Under the pieces are notes generated by a model. The model ran no database searches. It was given only the letters and a program-made list of their open reading frames with translations, and was not told the DNA's origin. The translations under genes and the position numbers were made by a program. From Synechococcus sp. AG-670-F04 (GTDB lineage: Bacteria; Cyanobacteriota; Cyanobacteriia; PCC-6307; Cyanobiaceae), in the NCBI GenBank assembly GCA_003211515.1, contig QCSN01000008.1:1-64000 (forward strand): 64,000 bases of DNA. Reading direction: 5' to 3'. Below are positions 5,187 to 21,472 of this stretch, one piece after another. How positions within the stretch are numbered: position 1 is the stretch's first letter; every line of letters begins with the position of its first letter.

Positions 5187-6272
5187 GTGACTCAGGTCGC
5201 CGTGACTCTCAGCCCGCCAACAGGGAAGGAGCGCTTCAAACAGCATCTCCGCAAGGTTGGCAGTGGCGAACACACCAGCCGGGGTTTGTCACGGCTAGAA
5301 GCCGCTGATGCTCTTGAGCTCATCCTTCACGAAGAGGCCACTCCTGCTCAAATCGGAGCCTTCCTGATTGCCCATCGCATCCGGCGGCCAGAACCCCAGG
5401 AGCTCGCCGGGATGCTCGACACATACCGCGACTTGGGTCCGGTTCTGAAATCTGCGGCAGGTGCCACTCCTCCAGTGTGTTTTGGCATGCCGTTTGACGG
5501 CCGAACACGCACAGCACCCATCTATCCCCTCACCGCGCTCGTTCTTCTCGCAGCAGGGCAACCGGTGGTCCTGCAAGGTGGCTCCCGTATGCCGATCAAA
5601 TACGGAGTCACAGCTCAGGAACTCTTCAAGACCCTTGGCCTCGATCTGTCAGGAGTAGCGATCGAAGACGTTCAAAAGGGCTTCGAGGCCCATGGTTTTG
5701 CTTTGTTGCACCAACCCGAGCATTTTCCGCTCGCGGAAAGCCTGATCAGTTACCGGGAAGACCTAGGAAAACGTCCACCAGTTGCCAGCCTGGAGCTCCT
5801 CTGGACTGCTCATCAAGGTGAGCATCTGCTGGTGAGTGGCTTTGTCCATCCCCCTACAGAGAGTCGAGCCTGGGATGCCCTGCATCAGGCAGGTGAAACC
5901 AATCTGGTCACCGTCAAAGGGCTGGAAGGCGGTACAGATCTTCCGATCGGACGAGCCTGCATCACAGCAACCGTGACCGATGGCATCCCCGAACGGAAGA
6001 TCCTTCACCCTCGAGACCATGGCTGCCACGAAAAGGATGTGGAATGGACAAATCTGGAGACTTGGACCGAACAAGCTGAAAATGCGTTGGACAACAAAGG
6101 GCCTCTCTGCAGTGCCACCCGCTGGAACGCAGGGGCGTACCTCTGGCTCAGCGGGCAGGCCAGCGATTTGGCATCCGGAATCAACTCTGCGGAATCCTTG
6201 ATCCAAAGCGGAGCAGCCCGTGCCGTGCTGGATCAACTCCGCAGCTGGCGCAGCACCTTCTCCATTCGATAA
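5187..6272 (+). CDS. anthranilate phosphoribosyltransferase-like protein (TrpD2/YbiB type)
   Basis: This 361-residue protein has the nucleoside-phosphoribosyltransferase class III fold: an N-terminal helical domain (about residues 35-90, with LELILHEEATPAQIGAFLIAHRIR) and a phosphoribosyl-binding domain. The GTGGD loop of true TrpD, which binds PRPP, is replaced by a CFGMPFDGRTRTAP region, so anthranilate activity is doubtful. YbiB-type relatives are reported to bind nucleic acid. The start is GTG at 5187 (MTQVAV). The 3' end overlaps the convergent GNAT gene by 40 bp. Confidence 0.75.
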   Translation: MTQVAVTLSPPTGKERFKQHLRKVGSGEHTSRGLSRLEAADALELILHEEATPAQIGAFLIAHRIRRPEPQELAGMLDTYRDLGPVLKSAAGATPPVCFGMPFDGRTRTAPIYPLTALVLLAAGQPVVLQGGSRMPIKYGVTAQELFKTLGLDLSGVAIEDVQKGFEAHGFALLHQPEHFPLAESLISYREDLGKRPPVASLELLWTAHQGEHLLVSGFVHPPTESRAWDALHQAGETNLVTVKGLEGGTDLPIGRACITATVTDGIPERKILHPRDHGCHEKDVEWTNLETWTEQAENALDNKGPLCSATRWNAGAYLWLSGQASDLASGINSAESLIQSGAARAVLDQLRSWRSTFSIR

Positions 6273-6700
6273 CGCACAAAGCTCACCCCAGCGATTTCAA
6301 TGGTCTCCGGGGCGATCAATTGCCAGCCCCTACCTATCAGCAAAGGGCGACTCATGGCACTGGCCTCCGTTGAGAGACGCTCAATACCGTGATCTCTGGC
6401 ATCCCGCTCGATCTGTTCCAGGAGAATGGATCCATGGCCCTGACGAGCGGCACATCCGCGGCAGTACAGCAGCGCCAGACGAGCCTTTGGATAACGAATG
6501 GCAAACGCCTCGTCCCGACCGCTGATCCAGCCACGTCCCTCATGAAACGAGCGATCGAGAACCCCCGGCAACCAAGCCAGTGCCGCCCAAGCTCTCACCT
6601 GCTCTGGGGTGTAAAGCACCCCTGCCTGGCTTTCAACCGCGTCGGCATAGATCTCCCGTAAGAGGGGATGGTCGCTGGAACGAATCGGACGCAGGACCAT
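6233..6700 (-). CDS. GNAT-family N-acetyltransferase
   Basis: About 155 residues starting MVLRPIRSSD, the usual GNAT opening strand. The acetyl-CoA loop is visible as AARQGHGSILLEQIE (R/Q-x-x-G-x-G/A pattern), followed by a strand before LIGRGWQ, typical of the motif B end. The frame extends 40 codons upstream, but that would run into the divergent MFS gene, and M at 6700 gives a normal N-terminus. The acceptor substrate cannot be inferred. The last 40 bp overlap the TrpD2-like gene tail to tail. Confidence 0.75.
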   Translation of the reverse strand: MVLRPIRSSDHPLLREIYADAVESQAGVLYTPEQVRAWAALAWLPGVLDRSFHEGRGWISGRDEAFAIRYPKARLALLYCRGCAARQGHGSILLEQIERDARDHGIERLSTEASAMSRPLLIGRGWQLIAPETIEIAGVSFVRYRMEKVLRQLRS

Positions 6701-6746
6701 GACCAGAGCCTGTGGGAGTGTGTGATCGATCGATACTCGCCCCGCT

Positions 6747-7961
6747 TTGCAGCGCTTCCGGTTCCCCACTCTGCTGAGCGCCTTTCTAACGCTGCTGAAC
6801 GATCGGCTGAGCGAAAGCATTGTCTTCCCACTGCTGCCATTCCTTCTGGCGCAGTTCGCACCAGATGGTCGAACGCTTGGGCTCCTGGCGGGCAGTTATG
6901 CCCTGGCCCAGTTTCTGGTCACTCCACTGATCGGAGCCCTGAGCGATCGTCATGGGCGCCGACCTGTGATCGCCATCTGTGTGAGCGGGTCGGTGCTGGG
7001 GCTCGGTCTGTTCGCACTCACGATGAGTTTGCCCTGGCCGAACGGAGCCGTTCTGCCTTTGGTGCTGCTGTTCACGGCGCGCATCATCGACGGAATCAGT
7101 GGCGGAACCGCCGCTACTGCAGCAGCCGTGCTGGCTGACATCAGCCCCCCGGAGCAACGGGCACGAGCGTTCGGGTTGATCGGAGTGGCCTTCGGCGTCG
7201 GCTTCATTCTTGGCCCTGGCATTGGTGGCTGGCTGGCGACCTTCTCGATCGACCTGCCGGTCTGGGTGGCCACAGGCTTCGCCATCATCAATCTGCTTGT
7301 GGTTGTGTGCCTGCTGCCGGAAACCCATCCACTTCAGGCACGCAGCGGCAGTTCAATCAGCCGCGAACTCAACCCTTTCGCGCGGATCGGAGCGGTGATC
7401 GCTGACGGCAGCATTGGCCAACTCGCCGCGGGTTTCTTTCTGTTCTTCCTCGCCTTCAACGGCTTCACAGCCATCTTGGTGCTCTATTTCAAACAGCGAT
7501 TCGGCTGGGGACCTGAGCTCGCAACATCCGCTTTCCTGGTTGTGGGCATCGTGGCCACCGTGGTTCAGGGAGGGCTAATAGGCCCACTGGTCAAACGGTT
7601 CGGCGAATGGCGGCTGACGATGCTCGGCCTGGGGCTGGTCATGGTCGGTTGCCTACTGATCCCAGGCATCGGTGCATCCGACCGGGTTGGCAGTGTGCTC
7701 ATCTCCGTGAGCCTGCTCGCCTTGGGAACCGGCTTGGTCACACCCAACCTCCGCAGCCTAGTTTCGAGACGTCTTGGCAATCGAGGCCAAGGAACTGCTC
7801 TCGGCAACCTTCAGGCATTGCAAAGCCTGGGAAGTTTTCTTGGACCACCACTGGCTGGTCTCGCTTACGACAGCATTGATCCAACAAGCCCCTTCATAGG
7901 AGCAGCCCTGATCCTGGTGATTGTCATGGGCCTTGTCGCCAGGACTGCATCACGGGCTTAG
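6747..7961 (+). CDS. MFS transporter (drug/tetracycline-exporter type)
   Basis: This 404-residue protein has about 12 hydrophobic segments. The MFS signature between helices 2 and 3 is GALSDRHGRRPV, and a second basic loop occurs mid-protein (GPLVKRFGEWR). The TetA-like layout suggests an H+-coupled exporter of small molecules; the substrate is unknown. It is divergent from the GNAT gene, with 46 bp between starts. Confidence 0.85.
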   Translation: MQRFRFPTLLSAFLTLLNDRLSESIVFPLLPFLLAQFAPDGRTLGLLAGSYALAQFLVTPLIGALSDRHGRRPVIAICVSGSVLGLGLFALTMSLPWPNGAVLPLVLLFTARIIDGISGGTAATAAAVLADISPPEQRARAFGLIGVAFGVGFILGPGIGGWLATFSIDLPVWVATGFAIINLLVVVCLLPETHPLQARSGSSISRELNPFARIGAVIADGSIGQLAAGFFLFFLAFNGFTAILVLYFKQRFGWGPELATSAFLVVGIVATVVQGGLIGPLVKRFGEWRLTMLGLGLVMVGCLLIPGIGASDRVGSVLISVSLLALGTGLVTPNLRSLVSRRLGNRGQGTALGNLQALQSLGSFLGPPLAGLAYDSIDPTSPFIGAALILVIVMGLVARTASRA

Positions 7962-17188: not shown

Positions 17189-18625
17189 GTGCCCTCTCTG
17201 AGCGAACCCAAGCAACGTCGTCACCACCTCGGCTCCAGCCGAAGCATTCGCAAGCTGCTGGAACGGAAATGGCTGGTGGTGGTTCTGGCCCTTGCCCTCA
17301 CGGGCCTGGGTGCAGCGATCACGGGGCTGCTGTTCAAAAGCGGAATGAATCTGCTGCGGGATTGGCGACTCGACCTCCTCAAAGACCTACCGGCCTGGGT
17401 CGTTCTCCCCGCTCTTGGAGCCTTTGGAGGGCTGGTCTCCGGCTGGCTGGTCACCAACCTGGCTCCAGCCGCCGGCGGTGCCGGTATCACCCACATCATG
17501 GGTTTTCTGCGGCACCGGTCCGTGCCGATGGGATTACGGGTTGGACTGGTGAAACTGGTCGCCGGCATCATTGCCATCGGTTGCGGATTTCCGCTTGGTC
17601 CAGAGGGACCTTCAGTCCAAATGGGGGGGTCCGTAGCCTGGAAGATGTCCCGCTGGTTGCGGGCACCTGTGGCCTTCCGCCGTGTGATCGTTGCCGCGGG
17701 CGGCGGCGCCGGTATCGCTGCGGTGTTCAGCGCACCGATCGGCGGTTTTATCTACGCGATTGAAGAGCTGCTGCATTCGGCAAGGCCGGTGGTGCTGCTG
17801 CTCGTCCTCATCACCACGTTTTCTGCAGACACCTGGGCAGATGTCATTGGCTTCCTTGGATTGGGATCAAGCGCCGGTGGCCTCAGCAGCACCCTTGGTT
17901 TCCAGCTGGAGCGGGAATACACACCTCTGATCAGGTTCCTACCCGTTGATGTCATCTATTTGGTCGTGCTCGGTGCTGTGATCGGATTGCTGGCTGAGCT
18001 CTACTGCCGTTATGTGTTGACAATGCAACGGCAAGCCAACCGTTGGTTCGGAGACCGACTGATCCTGCGCATGACTCTGTGCGGTCTTGTGCTCGGCTGC
18101 GTGTATGCCGCGCTGCCGAACACTTTTCACAACCCCTCAGAACTTGAACATCAGATTGCCGATGGCGCAGCTGATATCTCCCTAGCGATGACCAGCTTCG
18201 TGGTGCTGTTCTTCAGCACTGGTCTGGCAGCGGCCTCAGGCGCTCCGGGTGGACTGTTCATGCCGATGCTCACCCTTGGAGGATCGATCGGTCTGGCCTG
18301 TGGAGGCTGGATGGAAGCACTCACCGGCTATGCACCCACCACCTATGTGTTCGCCGGCATGGGTGCCTTTGTGGCGGGATGCTCCCGCACACCGATCTCT
18401 GCAATGTTCCTCGCCTTTGCCCTTACCAAGGATCTTCTGATCCTCAAACCAATCCTTGTGGCATGCCTGATGAGTTTCGTTGTGGCACGGATCTTCAATC
18501 AACACTCGATCTACGAGCGCCAGATGGGAATGGAACTGGCCGTGGAAGAAACGCTTGAACGTCGTCTGGAACGCCATCGCCGGCCCTTCATACCCCCCGC
18601 ACCTCCAACAGCTCCAGACCACTGA
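17189..18625 (+). CDS. ClC-family chloride channel/antiporter
   Basis: The 478-residue membrane protein has the ClC signature sites: GGAGITH in place of GSGIP near the N-terminal helices, GPEGPSVQMGG with the gating glutamate at E139, and GGLFMPML for GxFxP. The gating glutamate is retained, as in H+/Cl- exchangers. The serine of GSGIP is replaced in GGAGIT, so anion preference may differ. The GTG start lies 23 bp after acnB. No C-terminal CBS domains are present. The stop TGA overlaps the likely CTG start of the next gene. Confidence 0.86.
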   Translation: MPSLSEPKQRRHHLGSSRSIRKLLERKWLVVVLALALTGLGAAITGLLFKSGMNLLRDWRLDLLKDLPAWVVLPALGAFGGLVSGWLVTNLAPAAGGAGITHIMGFLRHRSVPMGLRVGLVKLVAGIIAIGCGFPLGPEGPSVQMGGSVAWKMSRWLRAPVAFRRVIVAAGGGAGIAAVFSAPIGGFIYAIEELLHSARPVVLLLVLITTFSADTWADVIGFLGLGSSAGGLSSTLGFQLEREYTPLIRFLPVDVIYLVVLGAVIGLLAELYCRYVLTMQRQANRWFGDRLILRMTLCGLVLGCVYAALPNTFHNPSELEHQIADGAADISLAMTSFVVLFFSTGLAAASGAPGGLFMPMLTLGGSIGLACGGWMEALTGYAPTTYVFAGMGAFVAGCSRTPISAMFLAFALTKDLLILKPILVACLMSFVVARIFNQHSIYERQMGMELAVEETLERRLERHRRPFIPPAPPTAPDH

Positions 18626-20262
18626 ACCAGGAAACTCTGCTCTTTGATCCGGTCCTGCCGGAGCCCAACGCCCTGCAGGCGGTCCTGGCCTTCCCCAGTA
18701 CCTATTCCGTAGGGATCACCAGCCTGGGCTATCAGATTATTTGGGCGACCCTTGCACGTCGCAGCGATGTGGACGTGCGCCGCTTGTTCACCGATCAGGG
18801 TGATCCACTGCCACGCCATTGCGACCTCTTCGGTCTATCCCTCAGCTGGGAACTGGATGGACCGGTGCTCCCGGAGCTGCTGCGCAACCAACGGATTCCC
18901 ATCTGGGCCGTGGAACGCAAGGACAACGACCCGATCGTGTTCGGTGGCGGACCTGTGCTCACAGCAAACCCTGAACCACTCGCGCCCTTTTTTGACGCAG
19001 TGCTGCTCGGCGATGGCGAACTGCTGCTCCCCGCTTTTATCGATGCCTTGCAAGGGTGCAGGAACGAGCCACGAGCCAGACGGCTGCAAACACTCGCCAA
19101 GGTGCCGGGCGTCTATGTGCCATCGCTGTATGCCCCCCGCTACGACGCCGACGGGAGTCTCCTGGCCGTGGAACCGTTGAACTCCGAGATTCCCGCGCTG
19201 GTGGAGAAGCAGACCTGGCGTGGCAACACCCTCAGCCACTCCACGGTGGTGACGCCGGAGGCCGCCTGGCCAGACATCCACATGGTGGAGGTGGTGCGAA
19301 GCTGTCCGGAACTGTGCCGCTTCTGCCTAGCGAGCTATTTGACACTGCCCTTCCGGACCCCATCCCTTGATGACGGACTGATTCCTGCCGTTGAAAAAGG
19401 ACTCACCGCAACGCGGAGGCTGGGCCTGCTCGGCGCCTCCGTGACCCAGCATCCGCAATTCAGCGATCTGCTCCATTGGCTCGACCAGGACCGGTTTGAT
19501 GACACCCGCATCAGTGTCAGTTCCGTGCGCGCCGCAACAGTGACTCCAGAACTGGGACGAATTCTCGCCAAACGCGGTAGTCGATCGCTCACGATCGCGA
19601 TCGAAAGTGGAAGTGAACGGATACGGGAGGTGGTGAACAAAAAGCTGACCACGGAAGCCATCCATGCAGCGGCCCGTCACGCCAAACAAGGTGGCCTCTC
19701 CGGACTGAAGCTCTACGGCATGGTCGGCCTGCCGACGGAGTCCGACGATGATGTCGAGGCAACGGGCGAGCTGCTGCTGGCCCTGAAAAAAAACACCAGT
19801 GGCCTGCGCTTCACCCTTGGTGTGAGCACGTTTGTACCGAAAGCCCAAACGCCCTTCCAATGGCAGGGGGTGCGGCCCGAAGCGGAGAAACGGCTGAAGC
19901 GCCTTGCCAAGACACTGAAACCGAAAGGGATTGAGTTCCGACCGGAAAGTTATGGCTGGAGCGTGATTCAAGCTCTGTTGTCCCGCAGCGATCGTCGTCT
20001 TGCACCGGTCATCGCTGCCGTTGGCGAGGGGCGCGAAAGCATGGGTGGCTGGAAGAAGACCTACCGCGCCGCTTTAAACGGCGAGCTGAAACCGATCCCT
20101 GGTCCGGATCTACCCGCTCCCCCGCCGTGGGCAACGGTGATCCATGAGGAATGGGATCAAAATTGCACCTTGCCCTGGATCCACCTCAGGGGTCCGCTGA
20201 CTCCGGCAAAACTGCGGGAGCATCACGATCAAGCCCTGAACCAGACCAGCTCTCCTGGTTGA
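18622..20262 (+). CDS. B12-binding-type radical SAM protein with probable CTG start
   Basis: The radical SAM cluster motif is C228-x3-C232-x2-C235 (SCPELCRFCLASY). The N-terminal part resembles the cobalamin-binding-like domain of the family, with LAFPSTYSVGITSLGYQIIW. That conserved-looking stretch lies upstream of the first canonical in-frame start (GTG 18769). The frame is open from 18559 but has no ATG, GTG or TTG before 18769. CTG at 18622 overlaps the ClC stop as CTGA and gives a 546-residue protein. The substrate is unknown; relatives include methylthiotransferases and Mg-protoporphyrin-type enzymes. The 3' end overlaps the convergent ligase-like gene by 77 bp. Confidence 0.8.
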   Translation: MNQETLLFDPVLPEPNALQAVLAFPSTYSVGITSLGYQIIWATLARRSDVDVRRLFTDQGDPLPRHCDLFGLSLSWELDGPVLPELLRNQRIPIWAVERKDNDPIVFGGGPVLTANPEPLAPFFDAVLLGDGELLLPAFIDALQGCRNEPRARRLQTLAKVPGVYVPSLYAPRYDADGSLLAVEPLNSEIPALVEKQTWRGNTLSHSTVVTPEAAWPDIHMVEVVRSCPELCRFCLASYLTLPFRTPSLDDGLIPAVEKGLTATRRLGLLGASVTQHPQFSDLLHWLDQDRFDDTRISVSSVRAATVTPELGRILAKRGSRSLTIAIESGSERIREVVNKKLTTEAIHAAARHAKQGGLSGLKLYGMVGLPTESDDDVEATGELLLALKKNTSGLRFTLGVSTFVPKAQTPFQWQGVRPEAEKRLKRLAKTLKPKGIEFRPESYGWSVIQALLSRSDRRLAPVIAAVGEGRESMGGWKKTYRAALNGELKPIPGPDLPAPPPWATVIHEEWDQNCTLPWIHLRGPLTPAKLREHHDQALNQTSSPG

Positions 20263-21472
20263 AGCCGCAGAGTCCAGCAAGCAAGACCCAACCGAGAATG
20301 TTCAGGCGACTGTCGAAAAACGGAAGATCGCTGGCGTGCATAGCAACCATCACCAACGTGGCCGCCCACCAGGCACGGTCCATCGTCGCGGACCGGAGGA
20401 TCCCCTGACGCAATGCCAAAACGAGAAGCGCCAGCACCACGCTCACCACAAGAACAGTCACGGGCAGACCATGGCTCACACCTAACTCCAGAGGGAGGTT
20501 GTGGGAATGGCCATGCCATTTCCTCTGAGCGTGAATCGGATATAAAACACTGAATGCGGCTGCTCCCCAACCCAACCATGGACGCTGGGCAATGAGATCC
20601 AGCCCAAACCGCCACTGAGCAAGCCTGGTGAGGCTGCCAGTGGCCTGCTTTTCAAGCAACCGTTGACGAACACTGTCTGGCAAGAGGTCTGCCGCCCACT
20701 GCTGCAAGCCCGTGGGTGCCCCGGGCCAGACAATCAACCAGATCGGTGCAGTCGCCAAGAGCAGCAGGGGAAAAAGCCAACCCCACTGCAACGGCCCCAG
20801 CACCCAGGGCAGCGCCACCATCAACGCGGCCATGGCATTGCGGGAACGGGTGAGGATCACAGCAGCCACGATCAAAGCTGACAGAAGCAGCGCCAGTGCT
20901 CGACACCAGCGGGCATCACGACGATGCAGCACGGCAGCCAGCGCAAAGGGCCAGATCACACCGAGCCAAGCTCCAGCCACGTTGGCGTAATCAAACAAAC
21001 CGGAGAGTCGACCTTCGGGCTGACCACCCGGACCGAGAAACCAGATGATTGCACCTCCCAGACATTGCCAGGGACCGGACCAGCCAAACAGCATTTGACC
21101 GAAACCGGTCACCAACACCGGCACCGTTCCAGCCAGCAGCCATCGAGCGGCGCGCTGCCTCCGTTCAACGCAGTCCAGGAACGGCCGAAACGCCCAAAAT
21201 CCCCAAAAGAACGGAATCCAATTGGCGAGGCCAGCCCAAGCCAGGCCGCCGGTCTCCGCCATGCAAGCACCGATCACCATCAGGACCGAGGCAAGAAGCA
21301 GTGGCACCATCCAGCGGTCCTGCCAAAGACTGGGTTGACGGCCTCGACTGCCCGCAACGCAGGACACGAACAGAGGAATCGCTGCCATCAACGCGCTGGA
21401 CGGCAACAAAAACAAACCCGCCTGGAACGCCAGCCAACCCGGTCCACCACTAAGGGGAGCGCGGCTGATCAC
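20186..21472 (-). CDS. O-antigen ligase/polymerase-like (Wzy_C) membrane protein
   Basis: This 428-residue polytopic protein has about ten hydrophobic segments and a large periplasmic loop. The loop motif RPWLGWGAAAFSVLYP followed by HGHSHNLPLELGVSHGLP is characteristic of the Wzy_C family (O-antigen ligase WaaL, polymerases and cyanobacterial IctB). A role in surface polysaccharide assembly or, IctB-like, in inorganic carbon handling cannot be separated by sequence. Its ATG overlaps the purU stop as ATGA (21469-21472), indicating translational coupling. Confidence 0.78.
   Translation of the reverse strand: MISRAPLSGGPGWLAFQAGLFLLPSSALMAAIPLFVSCVAGSRGRQPSLWQDRWMVPLLLASVLMVIGACMAETGGLAWAGLANWIPFFWGFWAFRPFLDCVERRQRAARWLLAGTVPVLVTGFGQMLFGWSGPWQCLGGAIIWFLGPGGQPEGRLSGLFDYANVAGAWLGVIWPFALAAVLHRRDARWCRALALLLSALIVAAVILTRSRNAMAALMVALPWVLGPLQWGWLFPLLLLATAPIWLIVWPGAPTGLQQWAADLLPDSVRQRLLEKQATGSLTRLAQWRFGLDLIAQRPWLGWGAAAFSVLYPIHAQRKWHGHSHNLPLELGVSHGLPVTVLVVSVVLALLVLALRQGILRSATMDRAWWAATLVMVAMHASDLPFFDSRLNILGWVLLAGLCGFNQESWSGSGLDRDAPAVLPESADP

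Follow-up and report, generated by a model that had tools for sequence, protein, structure and literature searches.

Of the four NTG start codons, CUG is both the least common and the weakest. The AUU start of infC, the E. coli gene for IF3, was reportedly tied to autocontrol by Butler et al. in 1987, and work by Gvozdjak and Samanta from 2020 is said to describe genes that prefer non-AUG starts in bacteria. According to PMC9845219, CUG is the start of 20 annotated open reading frames (0.024%) in 69 bacterial genomes, and conserved weak starts include the GUG of psbC in Synechocystis and the UUG of infA in Chlorella and tobacco. PMC11497404 puts the output of a CUG start at 0.86% of AUG output, and PMC5622118 gives two reconstructed switches from AUG to CUG among 61,358 ancestral AUG starts. 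A full-text literature search, which left most subscription papers outside its scope, showed no work on conservation of a CTG start among picocyanobacteria in the titles and abstract openings listed.

The locus described here belongs to a little-studied radical SAM gene of the ocean's commonest photosynthetic bacteria, a gene that nearly always begins with CTG. The window, by which we mean the whole stretch of 64,000 nucleotides from Synechococcus sp. AG-670-F04 that was analyzed, contains the following features:

17189 to 18625, plus strand: ClC-type chloride channel gene (Pfam PF00654, Voltage_CLC, E 2.5e-72), the TGA of which overlaps the CTG
18559 to 18621, plus strand: open in-frame stretch 5' of the CTG, without coding signal in the radical SAM frame, overlapping the end of the ClC gene
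18622 to 20262, plus strand: gene for the radical SAM protein, 546 codons followed by a stop (Pfam PF19864 and PF04055)
18622 to 18624, plus strand: CTG, inferred start codon of the radical SAM gene, near-fixed in family loci, with two changes on the tree
18643 to 18696, plus strand: codons 8 to 25, tentative RNA hairpin in relatives, the exact pairing of which differs by lineage
18769 to 18771, plus strand: GTG at codon 50, the first standard start codon in frame and not the likely start
18814 to 19122, plus strand: Radical_SAM_N2 domain (PF19864), residues 65 to 167
19288 to 19776, plus strand: radical SAM core (PF04055), residues 223 to 385
19303 to 19326, plus strand: cysteine motif C228-C232-C235, invariant columns in 27 sequences

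A sequence-only reading of this DNA had pointed out that the open frame of the radical SAM gene reaches back to 18559 and that its first ATG, GTG, or TTG is the GTG at 18769, after 70 other codons. It had also pointed out that the CTG at 18622 to 18624 shares the letters CTGA with the ClC stop codon TGA at 18623 to 18625. Both descriptions are accurate. The last 77 bases of the radical SAM gene (20186 to 20262) also belong to the end of an open reading frame that converges on it from the minus strand (20186 to 21472, 428 aa).

Membership of the encoded protein in the radical SAM superfamily is met by PF04055 (51.5 bits; cut-off, 29.5) and PF19864 (96.2 bits; cut-off, 29). The CxxxCxxC motif test is likewise met, as C228, C232, and C235 are invariant in 27 sequences, and these cysteines presumably hold the iron-sulfur cluster, as in radical SAM enzymes generally. 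The best NCBIfam hit is TIGR03960 (rSAM_fuse_unch, B12-binding radical SAM proteins), which covers residues 19 to 483 with 261.9 bits, but this is below the cut-off of 462.3 bits, and membership in that family is not met. The genome also has, at G000:C41:12283-13626, a second, longer radical SAM relative (36% identity; open frame of 904 aa) that is present in many other genomes of the genus as well; it may be closer to TIGR03960 than the gene with the CTG, a suggestion made without a profile scan. In structure comparison, the predicted model is closest to MgmA and cobalamin-dependent radical SAM enzymes, with no cobalamin-binding data. The radical SAM glutamine methylase MgmA (9ccb) is the top structural hit (Foldseek E 1.8e-15; query TM 0.51) and the only sequence match in the PDB at E ≤ 0.01. 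However, MgmA and the cyanobacterial protein share just 17% identity, and for the latter neither the substrate nor cobalamin binding is known.

Codon 1 was CTG in all 30 orthologous loci of the genus that were read, the window included. A match was present in 33 of the 34 genus genomes and an orthologue in 32; no match was found in G018 (53% complete), and G029 has a distant paralogue only. The sample was extended by 80 loci from named genomes and by loci from further genomes of the family; of 80 loci drawn from the latter, G253 was excluded as a chance match, and G034 (at a contig end) and G048 were read separately. Synechococcus WH7803 (L057) likewise carries the CTG. Among the resulting 153 distinct family loci, the named ones of which are Synechococcus, Cyanobium, and Prochlorococcus, codon 1 is CTG in 150, ATG in 2, and TTG in 1. 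Loci were taken as distinct by counting once per first 200 bases, which gave 152 (150 with CTG, one with TTG in G041, and one with ATG in G113); the 153rd, from G034, is truncated at the contig end and has ATG. Because CTG holds this position in 150 of 153 distinct loci, CTG 18622 is neither a chance occurrence nor a sequencing error, and the presence of the same codon in relatives rules out both. Seen across the loci compared, a single-genome oddity is a family-wide rule.

A wider pattern count over 300 genomes of the family gave the CTG form in 190 and a form with A, G, or T in 16. At least one of the 190 is a match by chance (G253, where the frame is full of stops), and neither G253 nor G260 has a protein match among the matches listed. 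For the 16, the pattern lies on the orthologue in G041 and G113 among the matches listed and, by translation, in G034; the other 13 remain unread, and 8 of these also have a CTG match elsewhere. At E ≤ 1e-100, a protein match was found in at least 213 of the 300 family genomes, not all of which were read, and in 108 of 116 genomes of the class. Several compact genomes (1.6 to 1.9 Mb; 99 to 100% completeness) in groups g17 and g56 have no match at E ≤ 1e-100 among the matches listed. One locus (L202; G112:C2:251698-255644) has two copies of the front of the gene, both of them with a CTG, at a distance of about 2.3 kb, and G226 has two matches on one contig.

Codon 1 behaves like a start rather than like a codon for leucine. 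When 130 loci were placed on a maximum-likelihood tree (quick mode), for which the first nine codons were left out and two N-rich loci were excluded, codon 1 showed two changes, each of them to a standard start, compared with 23 to 43 changes at each of 22 other conserved leucine codons. All 34 loci with a GC content below 45% have CTG at codon 1, and CTG makes up 5.8% of their 1,268 other leucine codons. GC-rich loci alone say less because CTG accounts for 56% of their other leucine codons. Two tests were applied for a CUG start, namely, that the codon swap only with other start codons and that the CUG mark the 5' edge of the coding signal. The first is met by the 150 CTG, 2 ATG, and 1 TTG, and the second is met as well. 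Among the family loci, differences at codon positions 1, 2, and 3 are 0.11, 0.02, and 0.49 over codons 2 to 8 and 0.71, 0.71, and 0.70 over the 10 codons upstream of codon 1, and the substitution pattern shifts sharply at codon 1. Of the 129 loci with an in-frame stop inside the locus 5' of codon 1, 108 have no ATG, GTG, or TTG in the interval from that stop to codon 1; the other 21 do have one, within 12 codons of codon 1 in 11 cases. Of the folding windows tried, those at the CTG and +15 have the weakest mean folding, and in loci with at least 55% GC, codon 4 is GAA in 83 of 91 loci versus 955 of 2,035 other glutamate codons. The comparison of loci thus shows that the codon is near-fixed, that it was seen to be exchanged only for standard starts, and that the coding signal begins with it, while initiation of ribosomes at the CUG, methionine as the first residue, and low or regulated output as the reason are inferences.

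Both in the window and in many genus loci, the open frame extends 5' of the CTG, which would allow ribosomes to enter it by frameshifting from the upstream gene without any initiation at the CTG. However, 17 loci have an in-frame stop 0 to 3 codons before the CTG, the sequence preceding the CTG shows free variation, and no shared slip site was seen by eye in the contexts inspected, a systematic search not having been made. In L196, a TAA stands immediately 5' of the CTG. Frameshifting from the ClC gene is ruled out by the in-frame stops close upstream in many relatives, and we attach virtually no weight to this route. Another nonstandard codon near the front, such as the CTG at codon 6 or 7 or an ATT or ATC, could also be proposed as the start, as AGGA directly precedes codon 6 in the window. 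Codons 6 and 7 wander among leucine synonyms (23 and 37 changes), however, whereas codon 1 is near-fixed, and codons 2 to 8 are conserved as protein, which makes a start at such a codon very improbable.

The upstream context was considered with respect to both ribosome binding and coupling to the ClC gene. In the window, there is no obvious Shine-Dalgarno-like sequence before the CTG. By eye, AGGAG was found a few bases 5' of the CTG in 23 of 30 genus loci, and a Shine-Dalgarno-like 4-mer is present in only 38 of 132 family loci. The sequence-only reading had likened the CTGA to a common ATGA coupling in which A has been changed to C. Locally this stands, in that the CTGA overlap with ClC is real in the window and occurs in 43 of the 131 loci with more than 200 nt of upstream sequence, and it leaves room for the view that the CTG is kept solely through the TG of the ClC stop or through CTGA coupling to that gene. 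As a general picture it fails, since the CTG outlasts the overlap. Elsewhere the spacing differs widely, and the CTG is retained at many other spacings and in the 31 of 131 loci where ClC was not detected within the upstream DNA examined. Codon 2 is GAT, GAC, or CAC in 18 of 132 loci; therefore, no TGA is formed there, the TGA is not needed, and the CTG is nevertheless retained. Furthermore, a ClC stop does not need C at the first position, yet the C is near-fixed. The loci without ClC and those without TGA rule out ClC coupling as the whole reason, and we regard its being what keeps the CTG as hardly tenable. Coupling is at most a local matter and could still help locally. Across the relatives compared, the CTG is conserved far beyond the AG-670-F04 genome and beyond the ClC gene order.

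Gene finders limited to ATG, GTG, and TTG would be expected to choose the GTG at 18769, the first such codon in frame, and a start at a downstream standard codon of this kind would place the upstream 49 residues outside the protein. In support of such a start, 98 of 130 CTG loci have a standard codon further downstream but ahead of codon 26, with codon 21 the most frequent position (56 loci). However, among relatives the position of the first such codon ranges from codon 6 to codon 166, and codons 2 to 49 evolve as protein. The N-terminal stretch LAFPSTYSVGITSLGYQ had been judged to look conserved, and the alignment of relatives bears this out. P25, Y28, and G36 are invariant in 27 sequences ranging from picocyanobacteria to Melainabacteria. 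In the AlphaFold model (mean pLDDT, 91.9; 10-residue means of 92 to 96 over residues 1 to 50), a strand at residues 18 to 23 and helices at 28 to 31 and 35 to 45 all precede the GTG at codon 50. The comparison with the model shows that the N-terminal residues belong to the predicted fold, and a start at GTG 18769 would remove the three invariant residues along with the first strand and helices. Homologues lacking the upstream 49 residues had been named beforehand as a result that would refute a start at CTG 18622. None was found among the family loci read. A downstream start therefore seems to us scarcely possible, and the CTG as start is strongly supported by the comparison with relatives. 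It follows that annotation restricted to ATG, GTG, and TTG misplaces the protein start in the 150 CTG loci, which in the window would cost the first strand and helices of the fold.

A possible RNA element downstream of the CTG was also found. The folding of codons 8 to 25 is stronger than that of synonymous shuffles, with a mean z of −1.53 in 35 loci below 50% GC and −0.78 in 94 others, and three later stretches of the gene have mean z values of −0.27 to 0.02. The same fold test on 414 genes of WH7803 or the window gave −0.2 (standard deviation, 1.12), but this gene set is GC-rich and is not a matched control for the AT-rich loci. The codon pairs (13,15) and (12,16) ranked first and second of 1,277 wobble pairs in 34 low-GC loci, but only 732nd and 154th of 1,268 in GC-rich loci; both pairs had been chosen after the folds were seen. 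In held-out loci, the fold strength held (mean z, −2.06; 11 rows, of which L076 and L319 are the same DNA); the predicted pair (13,15) formed in 8 of 11 rows and the predicted pair (12,16) in 2 of 11, and (11,17) formed in 6 of 11. RNAalifold found no consensus structure for codons 8 to 25. In the AT-rich loci L192, L316, L155, and L321, the pairing of the hairpin shifts between lineages. Because one of the two predicted pairs failed in the held-out loci, although the strength was borne out there, the hairpin signal is kept as a tentative lead only.

No clear second case of a nonstandard start emerged from a first survey of 256 gene pairs, and a larger survey of 562 orthologous pairs (WH7803 or window genes versus G004) likewise yielded no other convincing case. 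Under the loose criterion of at least eight aligned codons before any standard start in both members and an identity of at least 50%, 42 of the 562 pairs qualified, and in 6 of these rows most differences were at codon position 3. Two of the six are the radical SAM gene itself, three, with lengths of 8, 9, and 19 codons, gave no clear picture on inspection by eye, and one, on the minus strand of the window at 6236 to 6895, overlaps in antisense a plus-strand frame (6726 to 7958) that looks transporter-like by eye. A separate, looser criterion flagged 108 of 448 pairs and was too noisy for use. As the surveys sampled about 0.8 Mb of each genome, their sensitivity is limited and other cases may exist.

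Outside the family, 30 loci from other cyanobacterial families were inspected by eye for the in-frame standard codon that comes closest, on the 5' side, to the aligned phenylalanine position. This codon, which need not be the true start, was GTG in 15, TTG in 3, ATG in 11, and ambiguous in 1; no motif was found in a further locus from these families (L302). By eye, the gene in other families (L292 to L311 and L081 to L091) often seems to be started by GTG or TTG. In 15 of 17 Melainabacteria-type loci, an ATG lies one to four codons before the site; one of the others has a GTG and one has only a TTG further off. Because of these upstream standard codons in other cyanobacteria and Melainabacteria-type loci, the ancestral protein probably had a few more N-terminal residues. 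In cyanobacteria, this gene may have relied on weak starts for a long time.

Overall, we are highly confident that translation starts at CUG 18622 and that this codon is kept by purifying selection family-wide, most likely for a low or fidelity-dependent level of the enzyme. The initiator fMet-tRNA would presumably decode the CUG despite a mismatch in position 1 of the codon; purifying selection would retain it throughout the family of Synechococcus, Cyanobium, and Prochlorococcus, and so weak a start may set an enzyme level that is low or that depends on the fidelity of initiation. Because the CUG survives even though a single change would give AUG, selection for a low or regulated rate is the best explanation, by inference. 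To judge by the relatives compared, evolution seems to have kept the CTG rather than allow a return to ATG. Retention of a true CUG start by selection is thus most likely, and low or regulated synthesis is perhaps the reason. A more specific proposal, which is possible but which we hold to be less likely than not, is that the CUG is a family-fixed regulatory device by which synthesis would be set by the fidelity of initiation, through IF3 or the supply of initiator tRNA and possibly aided by the hairpin, extending a preference for GTG and TTG that this gene seemingly has elsewhere in cyanobacteria. Kept in both GC-rich and AT-rich genomes at one mutation from ATG, the codon amounts to a natural experiment on selection for a weak start, and such selection is testable in culturable strains.

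Among known systems, infC resembles this gene in having a non-AUG start that matters for gene control. It differs in the codon and in the protein, and no control by IF3 has been shown for the radical SAM gene. Within the picocyanobacteria, infC was rejected as a parallel case, since its start is ATG in the three of nine family loci where it could be read. On the evidence of PMC9845219, psbC and infA are similar to the radical SAM gene in that weak starts are retained in particular genes of cyanobacteria and plastids; their GUG and UUG, however, are ordinary alternative starts, unlike CUG.
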